A stretch of DNA of 49,270 nucleotides from a virus: positions 1-49,270 of IMG/VR virus record IMGVR_UViG_3300035670_000323; one strand, given 5' to 3'. Numbering within the stretch: position 1 is the stretch's first letter; each line of letters opens with the position of its first letter. The notes below the pieces were generated by a model. It ran no database searches and had not been told where the DNA came from. It saw nothing but the letters and a program-made list of their open reading frames with translations. Position numbers and translations under genes: made by a program. Below are positions 6,552-33,434 of the stretch, one piece after another.

Positions 6552-6741
6552 TAGGTATCTCCAAATAGCGTCGGCCGTTGCCTTCGCGGTATCCCTGCTT
6601 TTCGAGGTGCTTCAATAGTTTTCCGAGCCCACGCGTGCCGAGCCCTGTTTCCACGAACAGGTCAAAGTGGATCGGTTGCTTCTTCTTGGCCAGGTCGAGC
6701 ACTTTATCAATCGCCCTTACCCTCTCTTCTGTGAGTATCAT
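6538..6741 (-). CDS. 67-aa winged-helix-like small protein
   Basis: ATG at 6741 overlaps the terminase stop (ATGA) and its end overlaps the portal start. The sequence begins MILTEERVRAIDKVLDLAKK and ends in a GYREGNGRRYLEIP hairpin preceded by helices GLGTRGLGKLLKHLEKQGY, the pattern of a small winged-helix or phage DNA-binding domain. A gene here between terminase and portal might encode a terminase accessory or a regulator. No family is recognised. Confidence 0.55.
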   Translation of the reverse strand: MILTEERVRAIDKVLDLAKKKQPIHFDLFVETGLGTRGLGKLLKHLEKQGYREGNGRRYLEIPNAHS

Positions 6742-8582
6742 TCAAATCCAAAACCTGCGTTCTTCTTGACGCGCCGGCTGTCGATAAGGTCGGTGCGCTT
6801 GGCGGTGTTCACGCTCTTGGGCTCGTATGGGAGCTCGCGGATAACCGCGCCGCCGATAGCGGTGGCCAGGACGCCGTCGTCTTTAAAATCCCCGTCGGCC
6901 TCCGGCTTGCCTCCGCGTTTGGCGTTACGGATAAACGTGCGCGCCTGGTCGATTAGGACCTGAAACCGGAGCTCAATCTCGGCCTTGTCTATCTGCGCGG
7001 CCAGGTGGTTGAGCATATCCGGCCGGCTTTTAAGGTCGGTTGTGAAGCCCCGCTTGTGCGTTACCTTCACGGATCCGTCGACCGTTTCGTCCTTCCGGGT
7101 GAAATAGAGCTTCACATGGGGCTTGTCCTCGAGCTCTTTGCAGGTCGTATACCCGTGGTTATTGTTCTCGGGCGCGCCGTCGGCCTCGTTGTAGAACCAG
7201 GCCGCGAGCTGAATGAGTTTGGCAAACTCTTCCGGCGCCCATTGGTTGTGAAAGATGGCGACCACGTTGCCGGTTACCTTGCAGCGGACCACACCAAAGG
7301 ATTCGTCGCCCTTCGGAAGGCCTTCGCTTGAGTCGGCCGACACGACGTATTGATAACCCTCTTTGGGGAGCTCTGCAATCATAAGCCACCCGTCGACCGC
7401 GTCCTTGATTCGGACCTTGTCCTGGAGCTCGATCACGTTGGCTCGGATATACCGGCCGTATGGGATAGGGTCTGTCGGGAGGGCGCGTTTAAACTCGGTC
7501 CAGGCCTTCTGACGGGCCAGGGCTCGGGCATTGAAGAACATGGAGCCGGAGCGGTGATAGTCAATATCGACCTCTTGGGCCAGGTCCGCGTCCGTCCGGC
7601 GCTCTGCCTCGGCCTCATACCAGGGAGAGAATACCTTCTTGGATTCACGGCCAAAGGTCGTGCTCCAAATGTTGAAGGCTGATTTGTAGTCTTTTTTGAG
7701 GTCAATGGGTATGCGGATCCCATTGGAAACGTAATACGCGCCGCGCGCCTTGTCCGGGTGAAGCGTCCAATGCAGGGTCAAGAGCTTGATTTTCTCGTCA
7801 TGGCCTTTGGCAAGACGGGCAAACTTATTGGCCGAGCCAACCGGCGTTGAGATTGGGATTCGGCACTTGGTAACGTCCGCGGTGGAGGTCCAGGCCTGGG
7901 CGTCGACACCCGATTCCCACTTGGCATACTCATCCATGACCACGGCCTTTGACCGGCCGCCGGATCCGAAGTGCGGGTTGGCTGACTCGCCCACGATGGA
8001 ATTGAACCGCTCGGGGTTATTCAGGCGCATATAGGTCGTGTTGTCGTTGAAATTGGTCTGCTCTTGGAAGCCGGCCGGGAGAAGGAAGAGGGGCTGCCGG
8101 CCCAGGTTCCACCGTATCTTCTCGAGCATGGTGTCCATGACGCCGAGCTTATCCACAAACTCTTCCTTGCGGGAGCCGACGCGAAAGTCCGCGCCCTCGT
8201 AGAATTGGAACTGGTGTTGGAGGACGTAGTCGACGATCCAGGAAGCGCCCATGTCGCGGGATTTCTCAATGAGAAGGTCGAAGCCGGTATTGACGGCGCG
8301 CTCAACCTCGAGCAGGGCCTCGGCTTGGATGGGATAAGAAATGAACGGGAGCACCGCATCCGCTCTGCGCGGGTCTTTGGTCCAACAGAAATTATCCACC
8401 CAAAAGACGATGTCCTGGGCGCAGGTCCGGGCGAGCTCACGGGCAAAGCCGGGATCACCCGAGGCCTTGTCCAAGAGCTCTGCGCGAAACCGCAGGTTCT
8501 TGAGCGGGTCTATGGGGTAATCGAAGAGCTTACTTAAACTGCTTCGATAGCCGGTCGTTGATGGTTCGGATAGCGTCTGCAA
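6738..8582 (-). CDS. terL: Terminase large subunit (packaging ATPase-nuclease)
   Basis: 614 aa. The ATPase half shows a Walker A-like EKSRDMGASW (about 106-115) and Walker B VVMDE (about 214-218). The RNase H-fold nuclease half shows VVSADSSEGLPKGD with catalytic Asp near 417, and a late acidic pair in DGDFKDDGVLATAIGG (near 568). The enzyme pumps DNA through the portal and cuts the concatemer. No ATG lies near the N-terminus. The likely start is TTG at 8582, overlapping the small terminase by 53 nt, with GAGG or AAGGG nearby but at imperfect spacing; the exact start is uncertain. Confidence 0.93.
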   Translation of the reverse strand: MQTLSEPSTTGYRSSLSKLFDYPIDPLKNLRFRAELLDKASGDPGFARELARTCAQDIVFWVDNFCWTKDPRRADAVLPFISYPIQAEALLEVERAVNTGFDLLIEKSRDMGASWIVDYVLQHQFQFYEGADFRVGSRKEEFVDKLGVMDTMLEKIRWNLGRQPLFLLPAGFQEQTNFNDNTTYMRLNNPERFNSIVGESANPHFGSGGRSKAVVMDEYAKWESGVDAQAWTSTADVTKCRIPISTPVGSANKFARLAKGHDEKIKLLTLHWTLHPDKARGAYYVSNGIRIPIDLKKDYKSAFNIWSTTFGRESKKVFSPWYEAEAERRTDADLAQEVDIDYHRSGSMFFNARALARQKAWTEFKRALPTDPIPYGRYIRANVIELQDKVRIKDAVDGWLMIAELPKEGYQYVVSADSSEGLPKGDESFGVVRCKVTGNVVAIFHNQWAPEEFAKLIQLAAWFYNEADGAPENNNHGYTTCKELEDKPHVKLYFTRKDETVDGSVKVTHKRGFTTDLKSRPDMLNHLAAQIDKAEIELRFQVLIDQARTFIRNAKRGGKPEADGDFKDDGVLATAIGGAVIRELPYEPKSVNTAKRTDLIDSRRVKKNAGFGFE

Positions 8583-12241: not shown

Positions 12242-12252
12242 GGAGTTAAAGA

Positions 12253-14434: not shown

Positions 14435-14436
14435 GG

Positions 14437-17397: not shown

Positions 17398-17519
17398 TTC
17401 TTCGCCTCTTGCACTTTTCGTAGCGCCCAAGCTGCGGTCCGGCACGACGCCGAACAAAACTTTTGCCAAAAAGTCTTTGGCGTAAACTGCTTGGCGCATA
17501 CCTCGCACCGCTTTTTCAT
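17394..17519 (-). CDS. 41-aa Cys4 zinc-finger protein, first early gene
   Basis: ATG at 17519 with AGGAGAA; ends at 17394 overlapping the next GTG. The product begins MKKRCEVCAKQFTPKTFWQK and continues FCSASCR: two CxxC-type pairs around a short aromatic knuckle, a common small finger in phage and host proteins. It is the first gene behind the early promoter, so it would be made first after infection and may act on host factors. Confidence 0.65.
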   Translation of the reverse strand: MKKRCEVCAKQFTPKTFWQKFCSASCRTAAWALRKVQEAKK

Positions 17520-17548
17520 TTATCGTTTCTCCTAATGGCTTAAACGAA

Positions 17549-17576
17549 CGTCAAACGATAGTATAACGTGCGTCAA
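17549..17576 (-). repeat. Two direct TTGACG repeats in the early promoter region
   Basis: TTGACGCACGTTATA (from 17576) and TTGACGTTCGTTTAA (from 17554) share TTGACGnnCGTT and are 22 bases apart, bracketing the -10 box and start site. Two copies on about the same helix face are typical of operator half-pairs. No repressor gene is identified, so this is a candidate only. Confidence 0.4.
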
Positions 17577-17588
17577 TGTTTAGGTCAA
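17560..17588 (-). promoter_or_regulatory. Sigma70-type early promoter
   Basis: TTGACC (17588-17583) and TATACT (17565-17560) are separated by 17 bases, one mismatch from consensus in each hexamer. Transcription would start near 17553 and reach the first early ATG at 17519. The promoter directly abuts the upstream terminator, a compact punctuation between late and early regions. Confidence 0.75.
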
Positions 17589-17589
17589 T

Positions 17590-17620
17590 AAAAAACCCCG
17601 GAGGGTGCGGTCCTCCGGGG
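17590..17620 (-). terminator. Rho-independent terminator at the end of the late operon
   Basis: On the minus strand CCCCGGAGG (17620-17612), a seven-base loop and CCTCCGGGG (17604-17596) form a perfect nine-pair stem, followed by six T (17595-17590). It is the only strong intrinsic terminator I see, and it follows the last late gene (17663-18025). Confidence 0.92.
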
Positions 17621-17662
17621 AAACTGTGCGACGTGGCGGTCGGCAGTTTTTTATCTCGGCGA

Positions 17663-18025
17663 TCAGCTGACCTTCTTGGTGAACACGCCGGTCTTGTTGA
17701 ACACGGCGACGGCGCTGTCGATAGCCCACGACGCCACCCGGCGAAACACGATCCGCTCGATGAAGTCGGGAAGAGCCTTGATATTGGCATACTCGAACCA
17801 AAGCGATTCGGCGAGTTGCATGGCAAAGTCCTTTTTCGCCACGCTCGTCCAATCGTCCTTGTTGGCTTCGGAGTAGGCTTCAACCTCCATAGCAACCGCC
17901 TTCGTCACCTCCTCGAGGTAGTTCAGGGCCCCCTCAAAGTCCCACTTGGCCGGCACCGGCACGCCCGACACGGCACTTACCACGTTCTCGATCGACTCCT
18001 TAACCATCTTCGGAGTGATTTCCAC
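17663..18025 (-). CDS. Hypothetical helical protein, 120 aa (GTG start)
   Basis: GTG at 18025 with AAGGAGGT at ideal spacing. Begins VEITPKMVKESIENVVSAV; the whole protein is predicted helical and amphipathic (LNYLEEVTKAVAMEVEAY, RVASWAIDSAVAVFN). It is the last gene before the terminator. No motif identifies it. Confidence 0.6.
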   Translation of the reverse strand: MEITPKMVKESIENVVSAVSGVPVPAKWDFEGALNYLEEVTKAVAMEVEAYSEANKDDWTSVAKKDFAMQLAESLWFEYANIKALPDFIERIVFRRVASWAIDSAVAVFNKTGVFTKKVS

Positions 18026-18169
18026 TTAGAACCTCCTTGTGAAAGAGAACCAAATCTCCACGATCTTGTTCCCCGCACGTTTTATGTAGAGTGTCAGGCC
18101 CTCTTTGCCACATCGAAAAGCGTCCTGGGCCTGTTTGAGGACGCCTCCAAAACTGTATGGGTCGCTCAT
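18026..18169 (-). CDS. Hypothetical protein, 47 aa
   Basis: ATG at 18169 forms ATGA with the stop of the holin-like gene, so translation is probably coupled; it has no clear RBS of its own. The product starts MSDPYSFGGVLKQAQDAFR and is basic at its end (FSFTRRF). No family recognised. Confidence 0.5.
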   Translation of the reverse strand: MSDPYSFGGVLKQAQDAFRCGKEGLTLYIKRAGNKIVEIWFSFTRRF

Positions 18170-18375
18170 TTGGGAGGTTGGGTCTTTTGCCCAAAGTAAA
18201 AGCCGAGCCCCAAAAGGAACCCGGAATAGAGCGGTTCGGTGATTGCCACGCGGAAGCCGGACAGAACACAAACGGTGAGCGTCATAAGGATCGCGAGCCA
18301 CGCCCGGACAGACACGCCGTAAAGGCGTGAATCATGCGACGGGGAGGGCGCCGGCTTCGGCTGTTCTTCGAGCAT
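18166..18375 (-). CDS. 69-aa two-span membrane protein (holin-like)
   Basis: ATG at 18375 with AGAGGAGGAA. After a Pro/Ser-rich start there are two hydrophobic segments (about 26-45, WLAILMTLTVCVLSGF; 50-63, YSGFLLGLGFYFG) and a short polar tail. Size and topology fit class II holins, which would release or activate an endolysin. It begins inside the end of the giant polyvalent gene (44-nt overlap). Confidence 0.65.
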   Translation of the reverse strand: MLEEQPKPAPSPSHDSRLYGVSVRAWLAILMTLTVCVLSGFRVAITEPLYSGFLLGLGFYFGQKTQPPK

Positions 18376-21300
18376 TGTTTCCTCCTCTTACGAGAAAAGT
18401 CTCGCGGTAGTATTTCATGGCGCGGTCGAGCTTTTCCTTGTCTTTTGTCCCGAGCCACCGGTTAATAAACTCGGCCCTCTCGCCGCTTCCCTCTTTGAGC
18501 TTATAGAGCGGGTTCGAGCTCTCGAGCGACCGTTGCAGTTGGTCGTATGTGACATGGAGCTCTTGCATCTTCTTTGAGATTGCCTTCTCGGCGTCGGCGT
18601 CGCCGAAGCGCAGCGCGCGCTTGTATTGCCGGTAGAGGATGGAGCGCGCCGAGTAGTGGTCCGCGCCGCCCGATTCAATGCCCTTTGATTCAAGAAACTT
18701 GTATTTCTCGCTCACGATATAGCGATAGGCGTTCTCTTCGGGATCCGTGGTCGTGATGAAGGCCTCGGCCAGGGAGCGGAAATAACCCCGGCTCGGGTTC
18801 TTAACCAGGGCGTCGTATTCGTTTTCGAGTTGGAGCATTTTGAGGAAATGCCGGTTCTTGTCCTCGATGGTCTGCGGCCTCTCATCCCAAATAGGAAGGG
18901 TCTTTCCGGTCGCGAGCTCGGCGGTCACCTTGTAGAATGGGTTGATTCCCCGGAGTATCTTCTGCACCGCCGGCTTTAAGCCAATGCGCCCGGTAACCAG
19001 GGGGATATTCCCGAACACGTCCTCGAGCGAGGCTTTGCCCTCAAAGTATTCGCGGAAGAGCTGCGGAGCGTCGTTCAGGCCAAACCACTCCAAGAGGTCG
19101 GAGAAAGCGCCCTGGCCCCGGAGGATCATAACCTCGCCTTTGGCGTTTCGGCCCAGGACAATGTGCATACGGTTTTGGTCGTATGGCCCCAGGTCCGCTT
19201 CCTCGTCGCCGTGCAAGAGGAAATTGTAGAGCGAGACAATGGCTGTTAGCCCCACGAGCTTCATCCAAAACTTCGCCAGGAAGGCCCCGCCCTTCATGCC
19301 GGCCAGGTAGCCGGTGGACTTGAAGCCTTTCTGGAAACTCTCGTCAAAATTGTTCTTAATGAGCTGTCCATACCGCTTGGCGTTGACCTCGAGCCACGAG
19401 TAGAACGGTATCAGGGTTTCTCGAATGTCTTTGCCCATAGCCGTTACGTTGTGGTAGTCGCCCAATAACTCGGTCGCGACCTTTGAGGCGCGGTCCAGAG
19501 GGTCCTTGATGGCGTCCACCTCCTTCGGATCCGACGCGCCGTATTCCTTGCCGCCGGCCACAAACAGGTCTTTGTAGTAGAGGTATGCGGCGTAGCGAAG
19601 GACCGATTCGCGGTAGTTGGTAAAGCCGGTGACCGCGTTCCAATAGGCGTCCAGGGCCTTGAGCGGCGTCGATATGTCCGAGGTAATGGACGTGTCCGGT
19701 CGGTAAAGGCGTTGGAACGATTCGAGGTTCTTGAGCTCCGGTAGCTCCTGGATGGTGAGCGAGGCCGAGAGCCCGCCCCTCTCAAAAAACTCGCGCATGG
19801 CCGGCGTCATTGGCTTGCCGGCATAGAACACGTCCGTCAATTCCCCAACGGCGGTTTTTAGGTGCGAGAGGATCCGCGGGTTGCCGGCGACGACCGCGTC
19901 AAAGTCGCCGATGAAGTTCTGGAAATTGTATTTGAACGCCCGGCGCGGGTTAAACAGGACCCAACGCTTCCACCCCTGGGTGAGCTTCTTCGATATGACC
20001 GTGATGAAGTTCTCGGGCTTCTTAACCCAAAGGCTGTCGAGGGTGTCGGCGACCTCTTGGCGCACAACAAACTCTTTACGCATACGTCCGACGGCGAGTA
20101 TCTTCTTTAGGTCTGGCATTTCAATCTCGGCCGCGGCGTCCTCGAGGATTTGGTTCAGGATCCGTTGGGGCACCGATAGGGCGGTGAAGAATTGCCGGCC
20201 TTCCTTCGGCTGCCAGGTCGTCCACCCTTCGGGGATGAGCTCGTGCCAATCGACCTTGTTCTGCGGGGTAGACTTGGCCTTCGCCTCGTCTTTCAGGCGT
20301 TGGGCGATATTCAGGTCCGAAAACTCAATCTGCTCGATGTTCTTGGCTGTCTCAATGTCGTGTAGGGCCTGGGATAGAACCTGAAACTCGGCCTCGACAT
20401 AGCTTGAGTTGATGTCGAATGTCGAGCCATGCCGGCGCTTGGCGTAGGCCGGGTTCGGGGTCTTGAGCTTTTGGCCGGTGCCCTGGGTCGCCCTCTGCTT
20501 GGCCTGTTGGTATTCAAGAACCTGGTGCCTGAAATAATCCTCTTTGAGCTGTTCTTCTTTGAGGACGCCGTAGTTGACCAGGTCCCGGCGCACCGCGTCC
20601 CATAGGGCCTCGCGCTTGAGAAGCGCGGCCTCGATGTCGGGGTTGGCGGTGACGACCTTATTGACCGTTTCCAGGTCCAGGGCCAGGCGGTCCTTCTCAA
20701 TGACGAGCTTGCCCTTCGGGTCGTAGTAGGAATACCCGAATGGAATGGCGCGGCCGGCCTCGGCTTCCCGGGAAAGGTCCTCGAGGATTACCTTGCGCGT
20801 GAACACGTCGAGCTTCTTCGGACCAAAGCCGGCGGTCAAACCCTCGAGCATACGAACCGTGCGCTCCTGGGCGATCTCTTTGTTCTTGGCTTGCCGGCTC
20901 AATATGTTGCGGAGCTCGGCGTATTCGGGTGTGTTGGGAAGGTGCTCGTATACCCGGGTGGCTTTATGCCATACCGATTCCATGATTTCGCGGAGCTTCG
21001 CCGTCCAGGCCTCGGGCTTTAGGCCGTGGGCCTCCCGGTAGCGGCGCTCGGTGTCGGGGTCTGAAAACTTGACCTCGCCGGCGAATAGCTTGTCGTTGAC
21101 CGGCTTCTTCTTGCTCGTCGGGAAAGGGATACCGCTGTGAAGGGCCTGGGCGTTTGAAACTGACCCCTGCTCGATCTTCTGCTCAACCTCGCTTACGGTC
21201 TTGGGCTTGTTGTGCTTGGCCTCGTATTCAGAAATGATTTGCCGGGCGCCCTCAACCTTGTCCTCGACACCCTTCTTCTGCGCGGCGAGGCTTTGAACCT

Positions 21301-24300
21301 CTGCGCGGTATTCGTCAATCCGGCGGTTGAGCTCTTCGATGGCCGAGGTGTGCCCCTCAATCCTGGTGGTCGGGCCGTCCAGGTCGGGCTCTTCGTTATT
21401 CAGTTGAGCTTCGCGCTTGCGGTCCTCGATTTCCTTTTCGTATTCGGTAATCTTGGCCGAGCGGTCGTTGACCTCTTGGACGCGCTTTTCTATGAGCTCG
21501 CCGTTGTAGTCGATTTTGGCCTGGAGGTCCTTAATCTCCCCTTCGCGCATGGTGTATTCGCGCTTGGAGATCCAATACTTTTTGACCTCGGGGTTGATGG
21601 TGAGAGAGTTTGAGAGCTCTTCATAGGACAGGCCGGCGTCCTCGTCCAGGTTGATGTTGGACACGCGTTGCTCGTTCGAGAGCCAAAGGGCCTTGTTCCA
21701 AGAATCCTTTTTCGCGAGCTTGTCATACATGAAGGCGTCGAGGGACCCCTTCGTGACGTAGTTGTAAATATCGACAATCTCGTTCTTGTTCCCCTGGCGA
21801 ACCCCGCGGCCGTTGCGCTGTGTGAGCGCGTCCGGCGTCCAGGGAACGTCGACGTTATGGATTGCCACGGTATCGGCCTGGAGGTTCATGCCCTCGCCCA
21901 TGCTTTGCGTGGTGCCGATAACGACCTTGAGCTTGCCGGTATTGTAGGCCTCGGAAATGGCCTGCTTGGCCTTCGTGGTGTTATTCGATTCGCCGTTGAT
22001 GATGGCGATTTGGTCTTTCGGTATTCCGTTCTTGGAAAGGATTTGCCGGATCCGCTCGTGATAGTTCACAAGGACCGGCCGCTCGGGGAGCATCCCGGTT
22101 TCTTTGAAGGCGATACGGTCGCCGTCCGTTAGCGCGCGCCGGCCCTTGTAAATGTCGAGGAAGATTAGCTGACCGGAGCCGGTCTTTTTGAATATGTCCG
22201 CGACGCCGGCCGTTACCTTCGCGAGCTTCGAGTTGGGCGAAAACCAATTCTCGTATGTTCCGGCGTCCCAAATGTCCGCGCCCACCGAGGCTTGCCGGCC
22301 CTGGGTTGTGAGCGACAGCATTGAGATACCCTGCTCTTTGGCCTTCTGCGAGTTTGATTTGACGAAGTCCACCTCGGAAGCAATCTTGCCGTAAATGTCC
22401 ATCTGCTCTTGAGAGATGGGCACCTCAACCACGTTGTATTTGGCGTCGGGGCGCTTGAGCTCGGCCATCGAGGCGACCGGCCGGAAGTCGACATACCGCT
22501 TAAAGATTTCGCGGAGCTCGTCGAGGTTCTTGTAGCCGGCCACGACGTTCTTTGGCGCCGAGGTGCCGTCGACGTTGACCACGTCGATATTGCCGATGTC
22601 CGCAAACCGGTCCAGGAAGTCGCCGGCGTTCATAATCCCCAGGTCCGTCCACACGTCCGGGTTGATGTATTTGAGCATGGCATAGATTTCAATGGGGTTG
22701 TTCGGCGTCGGGGTAGCCGTGAGAAAGAAGGTGCCCTTCTTGCCTTCCTTGTGCAGGTGCCGAATCTTGTAATCCAGGTCGTTCGCGCGGTCGGAGAAGT
22801 TCTGCGTGGTGATCCCCTGCTCGCCGGTGTAGGTTCCCCAATCCAGGTAGACGTTCTTGTAGTTGTGCGCCTCGTCGACGTAGATAGAATCGAAGCCCAT
22901 ATCCTCAAAGAAAATGGTGTTCGTTTTCTTCATGTCTTGAAGGGCTTTGAGCGATTCCTTCTTCTTGGCAATCTTCTCCTGGAGCTGTCTCTCGGTTGCC
23001 TTCCGGCCGCGGCCCCCGCCCTTCTGCGAGTTCATCCGGCGAATCCGGTCCTCGTAGGCCGCGATGTCTTGCTTCATAAACTCTTCCGAGGCCTTGAGCG
23101 GGATAATCTTGAGGCGGTCGGTGGACACCAGGGCGAAGTCAAACTCGTTCATGGCGATCTGCTGAAACATCTTGTTGGCGTTCTTCGCGTCCAGGTTTTC
23201 CAGGGACATGATCTTTGAGCCCGGGAACAGGAAGGACATTTCCTTCGCCCAATTCTGAATGACCTTTGCCGGCACGACGAAAAGGGGCCGGCGCTGCAAG
23301 CCCATCTGCCGGCGCGTCTGTGAAAGCACGATAGCCGCCAGGGTCTTGCCACCACCGACGCCGTGCGCGTCGATTCCGCGGCCCTCATAAACCATCTGCC
23401 ATATCCACTCCCATTGATGGGGCATGATTTTGAGTGGCTTGCCGTAGAATGAGGACGCCAGGCCTTTGAGCTGAAAGGCCTTTGATTCGGGCGCGCGCCG
23501 GCGAAACGACCGGTAAAGCCGGTTGTATTTGGCTGTGATTTGGGCCTTTGCCTCTGCGCCTTGACCCTTCATCCAGGCCGAAAAGAGCTCGTCGACCTTC
23601 TTGAGGGCTGCGGTTTTCTCGGGCGACATGACCTTCTTGGCATACCGGTCACCGTTTGCGGTGTAGGCCTCAACCTCTTCGTATTCCTTTTCGTGATTAA
23701 GGTATTTCAGGATGGCTTCGATGGGCGAGTTGTTGCCAATGCGGAGCTCTTCGGGACCGCTCCATTTGTTGAGGTAGCCGTCTGTCTGAATATCCCATTC
23801 GAGGACACCGCTGACCGGGTTTACCTCGCGAGTAAGGCGCGCCGGGATCCCAATATCGTTAAGCCAAGCGGTCTTTAGGTCATTGCTGATATAGGTTGCC
23901 AAAAGCGAAACCTCGACCTGGTCAAACCGGGCTTGCTCGGGCAACACGAGCTTGAGCTTCTCGGCCTGGTTCTTTAGGCCGGCGGCCTCTGCCGCCTCAA
24001 TCTTTTGGTGAATGTCGCCGTATAGGTATTCCTCGTCCGGCACCACCTTATCGCCTTCGAGGTTCATGCCTGGTAGCTCCATGAGCGCGCTCTTGGCGTC
24101 GCCCGGGTAAAGGGCTTTTACCTTGTCAAAGTCGTAGCGGCCTTCCGATTCCTTGATGAACCGGACCACGTCGGCAATATCGTCGACGTTGGCCGGCGCG
24201 ACCTCCCGATCGGGCAGATAGAGCGTCGGCTTTGTGAGGATGTCCGCGAGCTCACCGTCCTTTGTCATAAGGCCGGCCAGGCGGTAGTAGCGCGGATCCG

Positions 24301-27300
24301 TAGAAATGACGTTTAGGCCGATGGTGTCATAGCCAATGGATTTGCCGTGCGCCTTACGGTAGCCCTCGACCAGGCCTTTGATTTCCTTTTGGAGCTTGGC
24401 GTCGAATGTCTTTGACCCAACCAGGCGGTCCAATTTCTCGAGCACGTCCAGGGCGACCGGCACCTTCTTCTCGCGCCCGGGCCCAAGCTGAACCTGGGCC
24501 TCGTAGAGCTCGTTTCCAATGCCCATGACGTAGAGCTTACCGCCGGACATTTTGTAACCGCCGTAGGGGGTCGACGCGTCGCCGGCGATCTTGTTGGCTT
24601 CTGCGATTACCTCATCCTCCGAAGTGTATTTGGTGTCGCGTGGGACAAGCGCCGCGCCGTCCTCGAGGGCCTTTGCCATGCGGTCGGCCAGGTCGTCGCC
24701 ACCGACCACGCCGGTCTGATGGCCGAATTGACCGCGCTTACCGGTGAGCGTTCCCCATGCGTTCTCGGGGTGCTCTTTAAAGAACGTCGAAAGGATTGAT
24801 TCAAAACCGCTGTCGCCCTTGCCGAGAGACTTCACAAACTCGGGCTGATAGTCCGATTCCTTGAACGCCGCGATTTCCTCCGGTGTCCGCTTCCTGAAAA
24901 ATAGAACGTCGGCCGGCCCGTCGTATTGGGTGTTCTTTTTGAAGATACCGTCGGGCAACCGGTAGGCGGTAATAAACTCGGCCTTCTTGTTCATCATGCG
25001 CCGCGCGCTGTCGTCGAGCTTGTCCATCGTGCCGATCGAGGTAATCACGGCCATAACGCCGTTGGGCCTCAATAGGTCCAGGCGCTTTGTGAGGAAGAAA
25101 TCATGGATGGTCGATATTTGCTTGTAGTCGGCGGCGGCCGGGTCATATCGTAGGTCGCCACGGAAATTGCCGAAAGGGTCGTTGCCGATGGAAATGTCGT
25201 AGAGCCGGTTCGGGGTAAACTTCTCGAACGGCATATTGTAGTGCCGTTGATTCGGGTAGAGTATAGAGGCGATTTTAGAGGCTGTCTCGTCGAGCTCAAC
25301 CGCGTCAAACTCCACGCCGGCCGGCTTGAAGCCCAGGAAATTACCTACTCCCTCGGCGGCCTCAAGAGCTTTGACGCCATCCAAAGAAACCCCGAGGCGA
25401 GCGAGTTTCTTCCAAATCCAATCAATGACCTGGTAGCTCGTGTAATGTTGGTTAAGGACACCCTGCTCGGCTTGTTGTAAGCCGCCGGCTCCGGTGTAGC
25501 GCCGTAAGACTTCTCGGTCTGCCGGAGTAATTTCTTCGCTTGGCTTCGCGAGGATTTCTTTAGCCTTTTCATTGAGCGACCTCCTTTGCGCTTTGGAGAG
25601 TTCGACGGGCCGCTCAACAGAAAGAACCGTGTCCGGTTCCTTCTCCGCGTCTAATAAACCTCGGGCTGTATCTTGGCCTTCACTTCCAGACTCATCGGTG
25701 TTCCCAGGAGCAATTCGTGTGTCCTGTCCGCGAGCAGGTTTTCTTCTCCGAACCTTTCCACCATCAGAGGGTCGAGCGTCTTGAGCCAATCCCGCGCTCT
25801 CGCTCGGCACCACTCCACCCTCTCGGCCTCCGTCTTGAACTCCGGTATTGTCTTGTTCACCTGAACCACCCCCCTCCGTTAATAGTATATCACCTTGTAT
25901 CACATCTTTCAAGCGACCGGCGGCCTCTTCCGGGGATAGGTCCGAGCCGCCGGTGTTTCTCAACGTGTCTTGGATTACACCGTTCTCATCCACAAAATCG
26001 ACCGTGGCGCTCTTGATTCTTCCGCGGTCCACCCGCTTTAAGCGGTCGAGCACGCGCTCGTCCATAGCCGGCGTGCGCTTGTAGGTATACCGGACGTGGC
26101 CGGGAACATGATAGTCGATGTGCGCGAATCCCTGGATCCCGACGATCTCGTCAATGGGCATATCCTCGACGGCGCCGCCAAACTTGACCGGCACACCGTT
26201 CGGGGTAATGAGGTCCGGGGTATTGGGCTCTGCGAAATACTGCTCGACGTGGCGAACGTCGGCTTCGGGTAGGATTTCTTTTTTGATTCTGACGGCTTCG
26301 ACGCCGCCCCGGCCGTAGACGATCGCGGCCGTCTTGACTATTATGCGGGGTTTTCTTGGGGCTTCTTGAAGAGGTCTTTCTGGAGCTTGGATTTGAGCCG
26401 GTCCGCGCACTCCTTCGCCGACTTCCCGATTAAGGAAAGTTTTGGCTTGGGCTTCTGTGATTTCGCCGGTTCTGTGTTTTTCACTTATCCATTCCTCCAG
26501 ATGCTTTCTTAATCCATCCTGAGTATACATCTTAACCGGGAGCTCTTCAAGTGATTCGACAAACTTCGCTTCTGTCAAGTCCTTTCCGTTGTTGTCGACG
26601 AATATAAACTCAATCCGTTCGTTGCCCTTGTATTTCGTGACGAGCTCTTCCATCGCCTTCTTCGCTCCGGCATTCTTGATATGGACCGGAATAGGGACAA
26701 TGCGGTGCTCGGGGTGGTCAACGAATCGTTTATAGACGCCCTGCTTGAACGCGACAATCGGGTCACGGTCGATATAGATAATGACGACCTTGCGGTCCGG
26801 GTCTGATTTCAAAACCCGTTCAATGATAGAAGCCCCGCTGTCCGGGTCTGCCGTATTCGTATCGACGACCGCAGCATAGGGCTCGGTTTCAATTCCCAGG
26901 GCTTTAAGAGAAGAGGTTTTGCCGGCGCCCGACACGCCACCCATGAGCGCAAAGGGCTTGCCGGCATTCTCCGGGTCCGCGAGGCGTAGCTGTAAAATTG
27001 TTTTGATGAGTGCGCTTGAAGCCGCGTGACGAACCTGCGATAAGGTTGAATCGAAAGGTTCCCGGCCCTCAATGTCCATCGTCCGGGCCAGGTCCGCGGA
27101 GAGCACATTCGGCACTCCGGTCTTGTATTCCACCATCGAGGCGGCGTTGTAGGTTTCGATCGCGAGCTCGAGGTTATTCCGAATGAAATCAATCTCGGCC
27201 TGCTCGGCCCCCCGTTGGCTATCCGGTAGCGGAGCTTTTTTGAGGTATGAATCGAAGATGGCAAGCGTCGCTTTCCTTTCCCGCTCGGCGTATTTCTCGA

Positions 27301-30300
27301 AGGTGGATTTATAGAACCGCGCCACCTCCGGCGAATCCATCCGGCCGGTCGGCTTATACTGCGCGTCCCACGCGTCTACCTCGGCCTGGGTGTCGAAGCG
27401 TTTAACGTCCATGAGCCACCCGCGATAGCGAACCTCCCAATACCACCGGCCGTTGCCGTCGCCGGTGTGTGGCCCGAGGATCCGTGTTTTGTAATCCTTC
27501 GGGTCAATAATCTCGGGCGTTGCGGTGTATGGGACCACCGCGCCGGCCTGGTCGTTCTCGACAATTTGGCCCTGAACCTCTTTGGCCTTCTTTTCTTTGA
27601 CGGCCTTCTCAACCCTGGGAACAATAATCTCGTCGACAACCTTTTGGCTTTTCTCGACGGCCACGGCTTTCCGGCCGGCTTTTACCGCCTCTGCCGGCGC
27701 GACGCCGGAACCCGCGAACGGGTCAAGAACGGTGTCGCCGGCCTTCGTTCCTTGCTGAATAAGAGAGCGCAGCAGGTCTGCCGGCTTCTCCGTCTGATAA
27801 CCACCCTCGGGTCTTTGGAGCTTAAAATTGAGGTTGCGGGTAAGGTCCTTCTCTTGGAAATTGCCCGACTTGTTCAGGAGCCATATCTTCTCGGGCTCCA
27901 TCACGCGGCCAAACATCTGTTGAGGCTTGCCGGCCTGGTCGGTCTTTAAGAAGTCACCGTCCGCAATGAGCTTGAATCCTGAATCCAAAAGCACCTTGTT
28001 GTATTGGAGCATTTGGCGAACGCCGCTCTTGGCCTGGGACCACATATAGTAAACCGGCGTGTCGTCCGTCTTAACGATTTGGCCGATGGCTTCCATAACG
28101 GTCTTGAAGTCCGCGGTTGAGATAAGGTCGTATTTGACGCCACGGTTACCGCCCCGGACCGCGGCTGTGTTGTAGGGAATATCGAGAAACACCATGTCGA
28201 CCTTGAGGCCCTTTTTGACGAGCTCGGGCAGGACCTTAACGGAATCGCCGGCCTGGATATAGGCAAGGTCTTGGGCGCCGTCGTTGAGAATATAGACGCC
28301 CTTGTCGACGCGTTTAAAGGTGCCCTGCTTCTCTCCGACGCCCAGGATCCGGCGCACGTTCGGCTCGAGAATCCCGGTTTCCTCGGCGACCTTCTTAATA
28401 GGCTTGGGTTCTTTGGCGACCGCCTCTTTTACTTTTTCCTTTTGGGTGGGCTCTTTTTTTTTAGGGCTAAATAGGTTTTTAAGTTCGCCCTTGAGCATAT
28501 AGTCATAGGGCGCGTCGTCGGCCATAATGTCGTTGCGCTGTTTGACCGTGAGCTCGGCGGCGCGCTCTTTTATAATGTCCTGGGCCTGTGAGTTGAGATA
28601 GGTGTATTTGACCCCGTAATCGTTTTTCGCCAGTTCAAGTGCGGTTTCAAGCGTCGTGTCATTATCGAGCTTTTCTTGGAGCTTGGCTTCTTTTGCCTCG
28701 CGCTCTTTCCGCGCCTTGAAATCGGAGGCGACGCGCTCTTTATAGTCGTCGGGACGAAAAATGGCCGGAGCGCCTATGACGTAGGGCTTCCCTCTGAAAC
28801 TGACTTTGAGGCCTGTCATATCTCCGCGCTTTGCCTCGTCTTTATTCCATAGCTCGTGGAGCTCTTGAATCTTGGAGTAGGTCTTGCCGGTAAATTGGTC
28901 TGCCGGGATTACCTCTGAAACGCGGGCCTCATAACCCACACTCCCGGTCTTGACGTAGAGCTTGCCTTCCCACTCAAAAGGCTTTTGTATCTTCCCGCTG
29001 TCTACCGTATGCCCCGAAGAAGAGTCCTCTACTGCGCCCTGCTTGCCAATATGCTTTCCACCCTCCCAGGTTTTTTGGGCCATCATTTCTTTCGGGACGT
29101 AAATAGCTTTGGCGTCCTTTTCCTTCATGGCGTCGAAATACTCTTTCCCGCCGGCCATGAGCTCGCGGTCCTCCGGGCTTAAATCCCCGTAGGCGGCGAT
29201 CTCGTCCTTGATTACATCGCGCACCGAAGTCTGCCAATTTGATTCAATGCCTGGGCGCTCTTGGATGGAGAGCTCTACCTGGGCCACGAGGTCGCTCAAT
29301 TCGTCCTCGGATATACCGGCCTTCTTTGCTTCCTCGTGAATATAGGCATTGAGGTCCTCATTGACCTTCATTTGGTCCTCTTCGGCGACAGCGTCAATAG
29401 CTTCGGCTTCGGCTTCGAGCTCTTGGATCTTCTTGTTTATAGGCGTCTTTTCCTTGCCCTTCTTACCCGCGAGCTCCTTCTGAAGGTCCGCGATCGCCTT
29501 GAGGATAGGGGCTTTCTGCTTGCCGGCGGCCTCTTGCAAGGCTTCCCAGCGGGCATGAAGGTCGGACACGGGGCGGTCGAGAAGGTCCTGGGCTGTGAGG
29601 CTGATAGCCTGGTCCGGCGGTGTGGCCGGCTTCTTGGGGGCCTCGCCTTTGGCTTCCGGCTTGCTTGGGCCTTCGATTTTGACGTTGACCGGCTTCTCTG
29701 CCTGGCTTGCGGTTTTGGTGGTCTGCGGGGCCCTGGGAAACGAAATGCCAATGTCCCCACCCTTGCGGAGCTCGGCGGCCAGGGCGTATACGTCGCCCGG
29801 CTTGATGGGCTTTCCGTCCTTGACCATATTGAACACGCCGTTGACAAACCGGCTCGCTTCTTCCTTTGCGAAACTTTCAGGGAATCCCCTGGCAACCATG
29901 TTGTCGACGACCGCGTCGTGGAGCCCGTTTAGAGCCGAGGTCTTATAGGCGATCGTGAGATTATGCCGGTTGAGCAGGCCAAACATACCGAATATGACGG
30001 CCTGTGCTCCGGCGTTGATGTTGTCCGCGCCTTGCAGTTTCGCTGTCGCGAAGCCGTAGGCCGCTTCTGACGGAATCCGTAGGAGCGGTGCCGGGATGGT
30101 TCCGACCGCACCCAAGCCGGCGCCGAAGGCGGTATGGCTCACCGCCTCCCCGATTACCTGCTTGGCTCCTACCTCCTTATCACCACCCGCGATACGAGAC
30201 ATATTATCGACCAAAGACTTGATACCGAATGTCGAGCCGCTTTGCGCCATGTTCGCGCCGGCGTGACGGGCGACGGCGTTAAGCCCGGCCCCGAGCCCGG

Positions 30301-30856
30301 GGATCTTGTCGAATACCTGGGCGCCCCTGATAACTCCGGCCATTGGGGCAATAACCTTTCCAATGCCGACGAGGCCGGTAATGTCGCCGGCCATCTTTTG
30401 AAGGGGGAAGGCGCGGGAGAGCTCGGGGGGTGCGGTGGGGTCCGCGATAATCCCGCTCATAAAAGCCTGGACCTTGAGGTCGCCGGAGGCCGGGTCGTTT
30501 CGTAAGGCCCGGACCTCGCGCCTGGCGTTGAGCTCGCGCAAAAGGTCTTTCGGTGCCGGCGTGGCCTTCGGATCCGCAGCTGATAGCCTGACCTCGGGCG
30601 ACATAAGCGCCTTGCCTATTTCCTTTTCGTCGCCTACATCGTCCGTTCCGGTAAAGCCCCGGATGAAATTGGTGACGTTCTCGTGGAAGGTCGGGCCTTT
30701 TGGGCCCTCTATCTTGATTTCGGTTGGCTTCTCGACGGAAGACGCCGGCGCGGCCGGCTCGTCAAAAAGCCCCGTGACGACCTTAGTGGAAGGGGCGGGT
30801 GCCGGCGCGGCCGGCTGTTCGGGCGTGCTGTCGAAGAGGTCTTTGATTACGGCCAT
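18332..30856 (-). CDS. Giant polyvalent protein: methyltransferase, zeta-like kinase, second MTase fold, SNF2-type helicase
   Basis: 4174 aa, about 25% of the genome. Domains in order: Ala/Gly-rich helical N-terminus with hydrophobic stretches (about 150-250); winged helix (about 800-860); beta-class methyltransferase with DIPYN at 892 and DPFAGSG at 1045; zeta-toxin-like kinase with GGVSGAGKTSS, K1313; second methyltransferase with EGVGNFLG near 1835 and NDPFG at 1892; SNF2-type helicase with GGGKT K2504, DEAH 2661-2664 and an R-rich motif VI near 3014; coiled coil to about 3200; C-terminal polyvalent-associated region with PFYSWLEVN near 3820 and a hydrophobic stretch near 3860-3885. Known polyvalent proteins are ejected with DNA and counter host defences; that role here is inference. 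The Walker and MTase motifs look intact except NDPF. Confidence 0.88.
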   Translation of the reverse strand: MAVIKDLFDSTPEQPAAPAPAPSTKVVTGLFDEPAAPASSVEKPTEIKIEGPKGPTFHENVTNFIRGFTGTDDVGDEKEIGKALMSPEVRLSAADPKATPAPKDLLRELNARREVRALRNDPASGDLKVQAFMSGIIADPTAPPELSRAFPLQKMAGDITGLVGIGKVIAPMAGVIRGAQVFDKIPGLGAGLNAVARHAGANMAQSGSTFGIKSLVDNMSRIAGGDKEVGAKQVIGEAVSHTAFGAGLGAVGTIPAPLLRIPSEAAYGFATAKLQGADNINAGAQAVIFGMFGLLNRHNLTIAYKTSALNGLHDAVVDNMVARGFPESFAKEEASRFVNGVFNMVKDGKPIKPGDVYALAAELRKGGDIGISFPRAPQTTKTASQAEKPVNVKIEGPSKPEAKGEAPKKPATPPDQAISLTAQDLLDRPVSDLHARWEALQEAAGKQKAPILKAIADLQKELAGKKGKEKTPINKKIQELEAEAEAIDAVAEEDQMKVNEDLNAYIHEEAKKAGISEDELSDLVAQVELSIQERPGIESNWQTSVRDVIKDEIAAYGDLSPEDRELMAGGKEYFDAMKEKDAKAIYVPKEMMAQKTWEGGKHIGKQGAVEDSSSGHTVDSGKIQKPFEWEGKLYVKTGSVGYEARVSEVIPADQFTGKTYSKIQELHELWNKDEAKRGDMTGLKVSFRGKPYVIGAPAIFRPDDYKERVASDFKARKEREAKEAKLQEKLDNDTTLETALELAKNDYGVKYTYLNSQAQDIIKERAAELTVKQRNDIMADDAPYDYMLKGELKNLFSPKKKEPTQKEKVKEAVAKEPKPIKKVAEETGILEPNVRRILGVGEKQGTFKRVDKGVYILNDGAQDLAYIQAGDSVKVLPELVKKGLKVDMVFLDIPYNTAAVRGGNRGVKYDLISTADFKTVMEAIGQIVKTDDTPVYYMWSQAKSGVRQMLQYNKVLLDSGFKLIADGDFLKTDQAGKPQQMFGRVMEPEKIWLLNKSGNFQEKDLTRNLNFKLQRPEGGYQTEKPADLLRSLIQQGTKAGDTVLDPFAGSGVAPAEAVKAGRKAVAVEKSQKVVDEIIVPRVEKAVKEKKAKEVQGQIVENDQAGAVVPYTATPEIIDPKDYKTRILGPHTGDGNGRWYWEVRYRGWLMDVKRFDTQAEVDAWDAQYKPTGRMDSPEVARFYKSTFEKYAERERKATLAIFDSYLKKAPLPDSQRGAEQAEIDFIRNNLELAIETYNAASMVEYKTGVPNVLSADLARTMDIEGREPFDSTLSQVRHAASSALIKTILQLRLADPENAGKPFALMGGVSGAGKTSSLKALGIETEPYAAVVDTNTADPDSGASIIERVLKSDPDRKVVIIYIDRDPIVAFKQGVYKRFVDHPEHRIVPIPVHIKNAGAKKAMEELVTKYKGNERIEFIFVDNNGKDLTEAKFVESLEELPVKMYTQDGLRKHLEEWISEKHRTGEITEAQAKTFLNREVGEGVRGPAQIQAPERPLQEAPRKPRIIVKTAAIVYGRGGVEAVRIKKEILPEADVRHVEQYFAEPNTPDLITPNGVPVKFGGAVEDMPIDEIVGIQGFAHIDYHVPGHVRYTYKRTPAMDERVLDRLKRVDRGRIKSATVDFVDENGVIQDTLRNTGGSDLSPEEAAGRLKDVIQGDILLTEGGGSGEQDNTGVQDGGREGGVVPSESAGLAQDARPSDGGKVRRRKPARGQDTRIAPGNTDESGSEGQDTARGLLDAEKEPDTVLSVERPVELSKAQRRSLNEKAKEILAKPSEEITPADREVLRRYTGAGGLQQAEQGVLNQHYTSYQVIDWIWKKLARLGVSLDGVKALEAAEGVGNFLGFKPAGVEFDAVELDETASKIASILYPNQRHYNMPFEKFTPNRLYDISIGNDPFGNFRGDLRYDPAAADYKQISTIHDFFLTKRLDLLRPNGVMAVITSIGTMDKLDDSARRMMNKKAEFITAYRLPDGIFKKNTQYDGPADVLFFRKRTPEEIAAFKESDYQPEFVKSLGKGDSGFESILSTFFKEHPENAWGTLTGKRGQFGHQTGVVGGDDLADRMAKALEDGAALVPRDTKYTSEDEVIAEANKIAGDASTPYGGYKMSGGKLYVMGIGNELYEAQVQLGPGREKKVPVALDVLEKLDRLVGSKTFDAKLQKEIKGLVEGYRKAHGKSIGYDTIGLNVISTDPRYYRLAGLMTKDGELADILTKPTLYLPDREVAPANVDDIADVVRFIKESEGRYDFDKVKALYPGDAKSALMELPGMNLEGDKVVPDEEYLYGDIHQKIEAAEAAGLKNQAEKLKLVLPEQARFDQVEVSLLATYISNDLKTAWLNDIGIPARLTREVNPVSGVLEWDIQTDGYLNKWSGPEELRIGNNSPIEAILKYLNHEKEYEEVEAYTANGDRYAKKVMSPEKTAALKKVDELFSAWMKGQGAEAKAQITAKYNRLYRSFRRRAPESKAFQLKGLASSFYGKPLKIMPHQWEWIWQMVYEGRGIDAHGVGGGKTLAAIVLSQTRRQMGLQRRPLFVVPAKVIQNWAKEMSFLFPGSKIMSLENLDAKNANKMFQQIAMNEFDFALVSTDRLKIIPLKASEEFMKQDIAAYEDRIRRMNSQKGGGRGRKATERQLQEKIAKKKESLKALQDMKKTNTIFFEDMGFDSIYVDEAHNYKNVYLDWGTYTGEQGITTQNFSDRANDLDYKIRHLHKEGKKGTFFLTATPTPNNPIEIYAMLKYINPDVWTDLGIMNAGDFLDRFADIGNIDVVNVDGTSAPKNVVAGYKNLDELREIFKRYVDFRPVASMAELKRPDAKYNVVEVPISQEQMDIYGKIASEVDFVKSNSQKAKEQGISMLSLTTQGRQASVGADIWDAGTYENWFSPNSKLAKVTAGVADIFKKTGSGQLIFLDIYKGRRALTDGDRIAFKETGMLPERPVLVNYHERIRQILSKNGIPKDQIAIINGESNNTTKAKQAISEAYNTGKLKVVIGTTQSMGEGMNLQADTVAIHNVDVPWTPDALTQRNGRGVRQGNKNEIVDIYNYVTKGSLDAFMYDKLAKKDSWNKALWLSNEQRVSNINLDEDAGLSYEELSNSLTINPEVKKYWISKREYTMREGEIKDLQAKIDYNGELIEKRVQEVNDRSAKITEYEKEIEDRKREAQLNNEEPDLDGPTTRIEGHTSAIEELNRRIDEYRAEVQSLAAQKKGVEDKVEGARQIISEYEAKHNKPKTVSEVEQKIEQGSVSNAQALHSGIPFPTSKKKPVNDKLFAGEVKFSDPDTERRYREAHGLKPEAWTAKLREIMESVWHKATRVYEHLPNTPEYAELRNILSRQAKNKEIAQERTVRMLEGLTAGFGPKKLDVFTRKVILEDLSREAEAGRAIPFGYSYYDPKGKLVIEKDRLALDLETVNKVVTANPDIEAALLKREALWDAVRRDLVNYGVLKEEQLKEDYFRHQVLEYQQAKQRATQGTGQKLKTPNPAYAKRRHGSTFDINSSYVEAEFQVLSQALHDIETAKNIEQIEFSDLNIAQRLKDEAKAKSTPQNKVDWHELIPEGWTTWQPKEGRQFFTALSVPQRILNQILEDAAAEIEMPDLKKILAVGRMRKEFVVRQEVADTLDSLWVKKPENFITVISKKLTQGWKRWVLFNPRRAFKYNFQNFIGDFDAVVAGNPRILSHLKTAVGELTDVFYAGKPMTPAMREFFERGGLSASLTIQELPELKNLESFQRLYRPDTSITSDISTPLKALDAYWNAVTGFTNYRESVLRYAAYLYYKDLFVAGGKEYGASDPKEVDAIKDPLDRASKVATELLGDYHNVTAMGKDIRETLIPFYSWLEVNAKRYGQLIKNNFDESFQKGFKSTGYLAGMKGGAFLAKFWMKLVGLTAIVSLYNFLLHGDEEADLGPYDQNRMHIVLGRNAKGEVMILRGQGAFSDLLEWFGLNDAPQLFREYFEGKASLEDVFGNIPLVTGRIGLKPAVQKILRGINPFYKVTAELATGKTLPIWDERPQTIEDKNRHFLKMLQLENEYDALVKNPSRGYFRSLAEAFITTTDPEENAYRYIVSEKYKFLESKGIESGGADHYSARSILYRQYKRALRFGDADAEKAISKKMQELHVTYDQLQRSLESSNPLYKLKEGSGERAEFINRWLGTKDKEKLDRAMKYYRETFLVRGGNNARRTAEAGALPVA
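25885..25903 (-). promoter_or_regulatory. Second GTGATA-type site, inside the giant gene
   Basis: GTGATACAAGGTGATATAC on the minus strand matches the intergenic site at 12223-12241 at 17 of 19 bases and encodes residues near 1652 (DVIQGDI). It may be a binding site for the same regulator, or chance. Confidence 0.25.
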
Positions 30857-31561
30857 TTACAAATGGCCTTTGCGCTTGAGGGCGTTCACGACCTCGTCCC
30901 TTGTCTTTCCATAGGCCTTCATGTTGTCGGCAATCATGGCTTCCTGGTCCGCGGTGTATCCGGTCGCGGCGGTCTGCTCCGGCGTCCCGCGCGCCGACGA
31001 GAGCATATTCCTGGCGTTTGCAAACTCGGCCTGAATGTCGGCCTGGGTGACCTGACCGCTGTAATCCCCGCCGGCAATCTTCTTTTCCTTCGCCATTTTC
31101 TCGGCGACGGAGTAGATGTTTGAAGGGGCAAAGCCCGGGCCGGCTGCCGTTCCTGATGGGGGCCGGTAGGTGAGCTTGCCGTCTGCTGACACTCCGATCC
31201 TGTCTCGTTTGGACGGGTCATTGATAACCGTGTCGAAAAAGTCCATCGCTTGTTTGTGCTGACGGACCGTGTCGCGCAGTTGGATTTCCTTCTGCTTTAC
31301 GGTCACAAGTCGCATTTGGTCGAGGGCCTTCTGCGCCTTGATTTTTGATTCCGTTTCCTGGGTCTTGAGGGCCAGGGTTGCCGGGTCTGTTTCGTATTCG
31401 AGCTTTTGGAGCTCGAGCTTTGCCTTCTTGGCCTCGATTTCGTTCTTGGCCGTCTGTGTCTCGATTTCGTGCTTTTTGATCATTATGTTGAAGAGGTTGG
31501 CGGTGGCCTTCTCGGTCCCTTGAGCCAACCCTTCAAGAATACCCAAACCTACGTCGCTCAT
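30857..31561 (-). CDS. Probable internal virion (ejection) protein, coiled coil
   Basis: 234 aa; ATG at 31561 with AGGAGG. Residues about 25-105 are a nearly continuous Lys/Glu/Gln/Thr coiled coil (KNEIEAKKAKLELQKLEYET), followed by a Gly/Pro-rich and helical C-terminus. It lies directly upstream of the giant gene, with only the stop and start adjoining (TAAATG), in the position of podovirus internal core proteins. Charged, helical and without signal peptide, it fits an ejected core component; this is positional inference. Confidence 0.6.
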   Translation of the reverse strand: MSDVGLGILEGLAQGTEKATANLFNIMIKKHEIETQTAKNEIEAKKAKLELQKLEYETDPATLALKTQETESKIKAQKALDQMRLVTVKQKEIQLRDTVRQHKQAMDFFDTVINDPSKRDRIGVSADGKLTYRPPSGTAAGPGFAPSNIYSVAEKMAKEKKIAGGDYSGQVTQADIQAEFANARNMLSSARGTPEQTAATGYTADQEAMIADNMKAYGKTRDEVVNALKRKGHL

Positions 31562-32624: not shown

Positions 32625-33434
32625 TTATTCCACTCCTTGCCGCATGATGAACGCGAGCGCGTAGTATTTCGGGTATTTGTGTGTGTGTGTTGATTCTGAT
32701 TCGCTTGAGCCGTCGGTGCCGTCCGGCTGCTCCTTCGCTGAATCGCTCGCGTCCGCAGTTCTTAGAGTGGAGCCCGAGCCGGTCAAGTCACCGCCATACG
32801 TCCCAACCGCGCCAACCGTCGAGCCGCTCTTGGTGCCAATAACAAACCGGTCCGATAGGTCCGGCGTTCCGTTGGTGCCATCGCAAAGCACATAGCCGGG
32901 CGGGATACTCGAGAGGTAGCCCGAGAACATCTCGATAATGCCGCCGATTTCAATGTCGCCGGATGAGTTGTTGTAGAAGGATCCGAGCTTGCGGTAGTAG
33001 GTCGCGCCGGTCGGAGTTGTCGACGACGCGCTGATTAGGATTGTGAATCCGTCAATGTCGGTGTCTGCGACAGCATAATAATAATAGACGGTGCTGTTGG
33101 CCTCGGCGCCGGTGTCAATATCCGACCATGTCACGGTCGTCGCCGAGGTGTTGGAGCGCATTTTTCGGACCGTGCCGGCCGCGTTGGAAATCATCACGTC
33201 GCCGGCCGACACCTTGAATTGGCTCGCGCTGTCGTAGTAGCCGTATGCGCCCGTGCGATAATTCTTGAGCATACGGTCCAGGGCTCCGTTATTTTCTTGG
33301 ACAATAGTGTCGATGTCCGAGCGTTGGTCGGATCCCTGTGGTGCTGTCTTATCCCATTGGTCGGCCGCCAACACCGGCGACACAACCGTCGCCAGGAGGA
33401 GCGCGACGCCGATAATACGCTTCCATGCCTTCAT
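32625..33434 (-). CDS. Signal-peptide-bearing tail fibre protein with tail-collar domain
   Basis: 269 aa; ATG at 33434 with GGGAGGGC. The N-terminus MKAWKRIIGVALLLATVVSP followed by VLAADQ is a Sec signal. The C-terminal part is a phage tail-collar domain: GGIIEMFSGYLSSIPPGYVL, CDGTNGTPDLSDRFVIG and a final THTHKYPKYYALAFIMR. Tail-collar proteins form the tips of receptor-binding fibres. Having an export signal on this domain is unusual, because fibres normally assemble in the cytoplasm. Alternatives are a surface-exported decoy or an adhesin. Confidence 0.8.
   Translation of the reverse strand: MKAWKRIIGVALLLATVVSPVLAADQWDKTAPQGSDQRSDIDTIVQENNGALDRMLKNYRTGAYGYYDSASQFKVSAGDVMISNAAGTVRKMRSNTSATTVTWSDIDTGAEANSTVYYYYAVADTDIDGFTILISASSTTPTGATYYRKLGSFYNNSSGDIEIGGIIEMFSGYLSSIPPGYVLCDGTNGTPDLSDRFVIGTKSGSTVGAVGTYGGDLTGSGSTLRTADASDSAKEQPDGTDGSSESESTHTHKYPKYYALAFIMRQGVE

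Follow-up and report, generated by a model that had tools for sequence, protein, structure and literature searches.

The virus record IMGVR_UViG_3300035670_000323 (49,270 nt, analysed at its full length and from here on called the window) holds one open reading frame (ORF) of 4174 amino acids (aa), and the question raised by this locus is what such a protein is and what it would do for the phage. An initial annotation had placed the gene exactly, at 18332..30856, leaving its strand (minus) unnamed, and had assigned a quarter of the genome to it; the product was read as one of the polyvalent proteins described by Iyer and colleagues (PMC5512222), built from a beta-class methyltransferase, a zeta-type P-loop kinase, a second methyltransferase, an SNF2-type helicase and a polyvalent-associated C-terminus. 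The analysis presented here bears out the class and finds the named domains, identifies the second methyltransferase and the helicase as the dyad of DarB-like antirestriction proteins, and points to a giant DarB-like polyvalent protein which, by analogy with other phages, is probably made late, packaged in the head and ejected together with the phage DNA. The giant DarB-like class is already known; what is new is a beta-class methyltransferase fused in frame and a C-terminal module shared by proteins of varying cargo.

The giant ORF runs from ATG to TGA without internal stops and without Ns, and in 100 shuffles of the window no stop-free run exceeded 343 codons. The window is the entire virus record and its opening 127 bases recur at its end, while the gene cut by the end junction is uninterrupted in a relative (L176), where it forms one ORF of 342 aa, and the genome is therefore taken as complete with 49,143 nt, 25.5% of which belong to the giant gene. 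From the N-terminus the protein consists of an N-terminal region, the beta-class methyltransferase, the zeta-type kinase, an LPD36-like motif, a gamma-class methyltransferase, the SNF2 ATPase and a C-terminal module of ~960 residues (Table 1).

The beta-class DNA methyltransferase, predicted to be of CcrM/RsrI type, was confirmed by a Pfam match (N6_N4_Mtase, aa 918–1077, E=9.7e-15) and by its motifs, since motif IV of DPPY type (DIPYN at 892) stands ahead of motif I of FxGxG type (DPFAGSGV at 1045), which is the order of the beta class, and both align with CcrM. For the putative zeta-type kinase Pfam alone gave E=0.07, the P-loop at 1306 being too divergent. The region is homologous to residues 1181–1428 of the 4288-aa protein of contig L047, for which Pfam reports Zeta_toxin at 7e-7, and a profile of the two sequences found the N. 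gonorrhoeae zeta1 toxin (PDB 6EPH) at E=1.3e-9 with the Walker A motif aligned, confirming the assignment. When the zeta alignment was used to scan viral contigs no matches were obtained, and aa 1–790 showed no relatives in searches of viral contigs and of the fetched relative ORFs. Zeta-like kinases have been noted in polyvalent proteins of conjugative elements and fused to MuF in phages (PMC5512222). In the L047 ORF (5108–17971) aa 625–740 match a 2H phosphoesterase and also the anti-CBASS protein Acb1 (E=8e-4), so that this DarB-like giant appears to carry counter-defence cargo beside the anti-restriction dyad.

The in-frame fusion of a beta-class methyltransferase with the DarB dyad is unique within a sample of 93 related records, composed of 50 with the C-terminal module (including L047, which was chosen for its zeta domain) and 43 more, mostly with the dyad. 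The sample comprises the top-scoring members of a larger family and is not exhaustive. In these records beta-class methyltransferases detected by Pfam occur solely as separate frames of 34–496 aa, never in the giant ORF.

The core of the protein (aa 1789–3056) is covered by PHROG 10089, 'DarB-like antirestriction', a profile of 4647 positions, at E=7.5e-152, and 130 deposited phage records match it, most of the named ones being annotated as methylase or DarB-like antirestriction. The domain order is that of the DarB dyad, in which LPD36 is followed by an EcoKI/TaqI-like methyltransferase and then by an SNF2 ATPase. The GXGU motif of LPD36, described by Iyer and colleagues (PMC5512222), is present as GAGG. 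Pfam places the SNF2 and helicase C-terminal domains at aa 2710–3022, and the SNF2 motifs are all intact: Walker A at 2500, DEAH at 2661 and motif VI (QRNGRGVRQG) at 3013. When the gamma-class methyltransferase was compared with its counterparts in an alignment of the dyad from 163 distinct relatives, motif IV (NDPF) was found to keep the Asn, the third-position Pro and the Phe, while its second residue is Val in 113 relatives, Pro in 33, Ala in nine and Asp in none. In motif I an Ala stands where 159 of the 163 show Pro. The sequence YTS replaces the TP motif, but most relatives likewise combine YTS with NVPF, and as motif IV of P1 DarB itself reads NVPF, a sequence other than NPP(Y/F) does not on its own indicate decay. 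A degeneration of the gamma-class methyltransferase, proposed from NDPF and YTS, is weakened by this comparison, and the residues that remain unusual, the Asp of motif IV and the Ala and Glu of motif I, are only suggestive of divergence.

Judged from its domains, the giant protein belongs to the phage-type polyvalent proteins and, among these, to the giant DarB-like class. It joins several disparate activities in one polypeptide, namely two predicted DNA methyltransferases, a zeta kinase, an SNF2 ATPase and the C-terminal module, it is linked to structural and packaging genes, with a tail-fibre-like gene that is transcribed in the same direction and lies 1.8 kb upstream and with a terminase in the genome, and it shows LPD features in the LPD36 motif and in a C-terminus that matches LPD38-bearing C-termini by profile and fold. 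The HExxH of a zincin-like metallopeptidase, a common but not universal trait of phage-type polyvalent proteins, is absent from the whole giant protein, and self-cleavage is therefore not predicted.

The last ~960 residues gave no Pfam match and no Pfam LPD model above threshold, tblastn with three different queries found no match among 50,697 deposited phage records, and single-sequence scans of viral contigs with the whole protein or its C-terminus returned nothing. Relatives were reached by alignment-seeded scans of viral contigs with the dyad and with the C-terminus, and as the module scan was pattern-seeded its 63 distinct ORFs are not a full census. In these ORFs the module forms the extreme C-terminus (median 13 residues after it; at most 40 in 55 of the 63), in proteins from 1118 to 4165 aa when 5'-complete and more than 4300 aa when cut. 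Thirteen of them, from 12 distinct contigs, also bear the DarB dyad, and others carry a Strawberry-notch ATPase with InPase or ParB-like domains, or PBECR3 with RadC. Neighbouring genes are seldom common to the phages with the module, which thus seems to move among unrelated genomes. In one ORF (L174, 4076–13921) a LAGLIDADG-like stretch at aa ~2637–2949 interrupts the module, possibly as an intein or a homing-endonuclease insertion.

A profile of the module aligned collinearly over 557 columns with the C-termini of LPD38-bearing DarB-like giants (probability 85%, P 6e-6; P 0.49 with the reversed-profile control). Pfam LPD38 searched directly gave no match, and hhalign against the 180-residue LPD38 domain alone gave a probability of 0.3%, the match appearing only with the longer C-terminal profile. 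A structure model from 58 sequences reached pLDDT 83.5 and pTM 0.84; an earlier model from six sequences was poor (pLDDT 54.7) and its fold search was not used. No solved structure matched the model (best E 0.15), while among the viral predicted structures of BFVD 81 matches were found at E≤1e-3, with TM-scores mostly of 0.3–0.5, many of them named large polyvalent protein associated domain, LPD38, RelA/SpoT, LT_GEWL, zeta toxin or helicase; cultured phages, PTXU04 and Alix among them, are also represented. The module is thus not kinless but a divergent branch of a fold common to phage-type polyvalent proteins. Kinship with the C-terminus of the N4 virion RNA polymerase or with that of P1 DarB was rejected, no match being found at this sensitivity. 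The initial annotation of a polyvalent-associated C-terminus holds by profile and fold, though not by any Pfam LPD match, and had missed that this part is a module common to many different cargoes.

The size of the protein, previously called extreme, is not so among its relatives. In a sample of 169 ORFs with the dyad, drawn from loci of viral and genome contigs, 27 match or exceed the 4174 aa of this protein, with lengths of up to 5.5 kaa, and known phages have a like layout, so that neither the length nor the quarter-genome share stands out. The giant of VvAW1 (3640 aa) takes 28% of 38.7 kb, a larger share than here, that of PalY7 (4675 aa) 24% of 57.7 kb, that of SopranoGao (4369 aa) 21% of 61.6 kb and that of L171 (4090 aa) 31% of a 40.1-kb contig; Atu_ph08 encodes one of 4877 aa (PMC6630229) and the DarB-like gp69 of JC1, with 4515 aa, takes 22.1% of its genome (PMC9144972). 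Iyer and colleagues mention a plasmid polyvalent protein of 12,242 aa (PMC5512222).

The giants of the Bcep22-like and Lastavirus podophages (JC1, SopranoGao, VvAW1, PalY7, Atu_ph08) are likewise single ORFs of 3.6–4.9 kaa, with 21–28% of the genome in four measured cases, placed after tail genes as here and carrying the LPD36-methyltransferase-SNF2 dyad and a C-terminal region of LPD38/LPD39 type. They differ in that identity, about 25–29%, is confined to the dyad, the C-terminal module being remotely similar, and in SopranoGao a lytic transglycosylase occupies the place of the beta-class methyltransferase and the zeta kinase. The 2255-aa DarB of the Escherichia phage P1 has the dyad in common (26–30% identity) but not the beta-class methyltransferase, the zeta kinase or the C-terminal module, and P1 has helper Dar proteins. 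The closest dyad relatives (35–36% identity over ~1500 aa) are those of L009 (107 kb) and L010 (110 kb), two contigs of uncultivated phages, which differ in cargo and C-terminus; upstream of the dyad both encode a histidine phosphatase (ORFs 3656–18133 and 5696–18241, respectively), and L009 also a HATPase. The nearest relatives of the module, in L179, L180 and L181 (48–49% identity), lack the dyad. As the nearest relatives of each part thus lack or differ in the others, the parts of the protein have different histories. Dyad and module occur together in one ORF of 3.7–4.4 kaa in L171/L049, L190, L198, L219, L234, L235 and others, of which the L234 contig also has an in-frame zeta kinase and none has an in-frame beta-class methyltransferase.

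With respect to function, the idea with the best support, which comes by analogy from P1 DarB and JC1 gp69, is that the protein is carried in the virion. P1 DarB is capsid-borne, its N-terminal 30 residues being sufficient for targeting (PMC9024508), and mass spectrometry of JC1 virions purified on CsCl identified the DarB-like protein by 51 unique peptides (PMC9144972). Protection of injected DNA from type I restriction has been shown for P1 only. The giant protein would be expressed late and then be packaged into the virion head by way of its C-terminal module, possibly with the N-terminus taking part, the constant module being a natural candidate for the packaging and ejection part, as are the C-terminal 1,400 residues of the unrelated N4 virion polymerase (PMC5512222). 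After ejection into the host together with the phage DNA, the SNF2 ATPase may travel on the incoming DNA, and the methyltransferases fused to it may mark that DNA or shield it against restriction, a motor-plus-methylation scheme proposed for the dyad by Iyer and colleagues (PMC5512222). The ejected defence shield suggested in the initial annotation is in line with this scheme but stays an inference. The beta-class methyltransferase might now supply methylation that the divergent gamma-class enzyme may no longer give. Zeta toxin kinases phosphorylate UDP-sugars and are toxic when free of their antitoxin, and the zeta-type kinase could act on a host nucleotide-sugar or similar, weakening cell-wall synthesis or hitting another nucleotide.

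Several points weigh against this reading. The phage is known from metagenomic sequence alone, and the activities of both methyltransferases are predicted. Most virion genes of the window are unrecognised by PHROGs, which leaves the argument for a late operon partial. A packaging role for the module, moreover, cannot be carried over from an experimentally tested protein, as the module matches neither the C-terminus of P1 DarB nor that of the N4 virion RNA polymerase.

More tentatively, and with the odds somewhat against it, the C-terminal ~960 residues may be a portable packaging and ejection carrier for interchangeable N-terminal cargo, to which the beta-class methyltransferase was added as the methyltransferase of the dyad diverged. 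The cargo would comprise the DarB dyad, the Strawberry-notch ATPase with InPase or ParB, the PBECR3 RNase with RadC, kinases and methyltransferases, an arrangement that would be the mirror image of polymorphic toxins.

The same constancy of the module, in 63 ORFs whose upstream regions vary widely or are short, would also suit an internal ejection or conduit protein for DNA delivery on which the enzymatic domains are accessory passengers, and related podophage giants bear lytic transglycosylase domains suiting ejection (PMC6630229). This structural role is rather unlikely to be the main task of the protein, as the ATPase motifs of the dyad are kept intact across the family, arguing against mere passengers, and among solved structures no similarity to a known conduit protein was seen. 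It is doubtful, and less likely than a structural role, that protection is free of methylation, the SNF2 ATPase and the bulk of the protein occluding or displacing restriction enzymes with the gamma-class methyltransferase as a dead scaffold. The exchanged Pro of motif I, the Asp of motif IV found in no relative and the NVPF of even P1 DarB would fit such a scaffold, but the catalytic Asn, the third-position Pro and the Phe of motif IV are kept, and the beta-class methyltransferase retains motifs IV and I. That the protein is instead a fused modification or takeover enzyme, made during infection and acting on replicating phage DNA without being carried in the virion, is improbable: many phage beta-class methyltransferases are ordinary intracellular enzymes, but the C-terminus joins the LPD38 polyvalent proteins by fold and profile, and comparable giants have been found in virions (PMC9144972, PMC9024508).

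A misassembly that fused separate genes into one frame, the case named by the initial annotation as refuting it, is very improbable, for although the GC content at third codon positions falls to 0.59–0.60 over aa 1201–1800 (0.66–0.80 elsewhere in the gene) and the junction of the beta-class methyltransferase is without precedent in the sampled records, the frame continues for 12.5 kb without a stop, the codon usage of every segment fits the rest of the genome (correlation 0.89–0.96) and most domain junctions recur in other contigs, with dyad and module joined in 12 other distinct contigs and zeta kinase and dyad together in L047 and L234. The lower value at aa 1201–1800, the zeta kinase and the linker following it, is in keeping with a later insertion of this stretch.

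Table 1. Features of the giant gene and its neighbours in the window
Feature	Position	Strand	Basis or remark
Giant polyvalent gene	18332..30856	-	4174 aa; stop codon 18332-18334
N-terminal region, aa 1-790	28487..30856	-	Gly/Ala-rich stretches around aa 150-300
Possible winged helix-turn-helix, aa 805-865, ahead of beta-class methyltransferase	28262..28444	-	By-eye reading, confirmed by no tool
Beta-class DNA methyltransferase (predicted), aa 866-1100	27557..28261	-	Pfam N6_N4_Mtase 9.7e-15, CcrM/RsrI alignment, motifs
Zeta-toxin-type P-loop kinase (predicted), aa 1250-1500	26357..27109	-	Walker A GGVSGAGKTS at 1306; L047 homology, PDB 6EPH
LPD36-like segment, aa 1750-1800	25457..25609	-	GXGU motif as GAGG at 1789
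Gamma-class adenine methyltransferase (predicted), aa 1801-2000	24857..25456	-	Motif I LEAAEGVGNF at 1831, motif IV NDPF at 1892
SNF2-type ATPase, aa 2477-3071	21644..23428	-	Pfam SNF2 1.7e-14, Helicase_C 4.2e-8
Charged linker, probably coiled-coil, aa 3100-3213	21218..21559	-	Composition; weak phmmer match (3e-6) to L010
Conserved C-terminal module, aa 3214-4174	18335..21217	-	Common to 63 viral ORFs
234-aa gene	30857..31561	-	Stop codon abuts ATG of the giant gene; no relatives found
Tail collar/fibre-like gene	32625..33434	-	1.8 kb upstream of the giant gene; PHROG matches to about 5e-10
Terminase large subunit	6738..8582	-	PHROG 5989 3.7e-6; tblastn matches to terminases

The place of the giant gene after the tail-fibre-like gene agrees with VvAW1, and in L007 and L075 relatives of this tail-fibre-like gene lie at the same distance before their giants. 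No portal or major capsid gene could be named by profile in the window, even with relatives. The ~340-aa gene over the circular junction (1-897 and 49060-49270, minus strand) is 60% identical to L176 13684-14709; it is the best conserved gene of the head block and perhaps encodes the major capsid protein, a function that no PHROG assigns to it. Four genes of the presumed tail block (32253-32624, 32625-33434, 33615-36056 and 36767-39475, minus strand) have N-termini resembling Sec signal peptides, for example MKKLSLFVLFAYLFSGVGFAEE, which is unexpected because virion proteins assemble in the cytoplasm. The product of the last of these, 902 aa long, ends in three cysteine-rich DUF4215 repeats (Pfam 2.2e-20), a repeat known mainly from Myxococcota and relatives, which may hint at the host. 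A multi-pass membrane protein (46494-47750, minus strand) shows a weak match to Wzy_C, O-antigen ligase/polymerase (E=1.3e-4, below the curated cut-off), and could alter the surface polysaccharide of the host.

If the C-terminal module is the part that brings cargo into the capsid and from there into the cell, it would provide a bounded sequence (~960 aa, with a confident model and a 58-member alignment) in which to study the delivery of giant proteins by podophages, for which there is no solved structure to build on. The beta-class methyltransferase, standing in frame beside a divergent gamma-class enzyme, would make it testable whether protection of the DarB type needs methylation.

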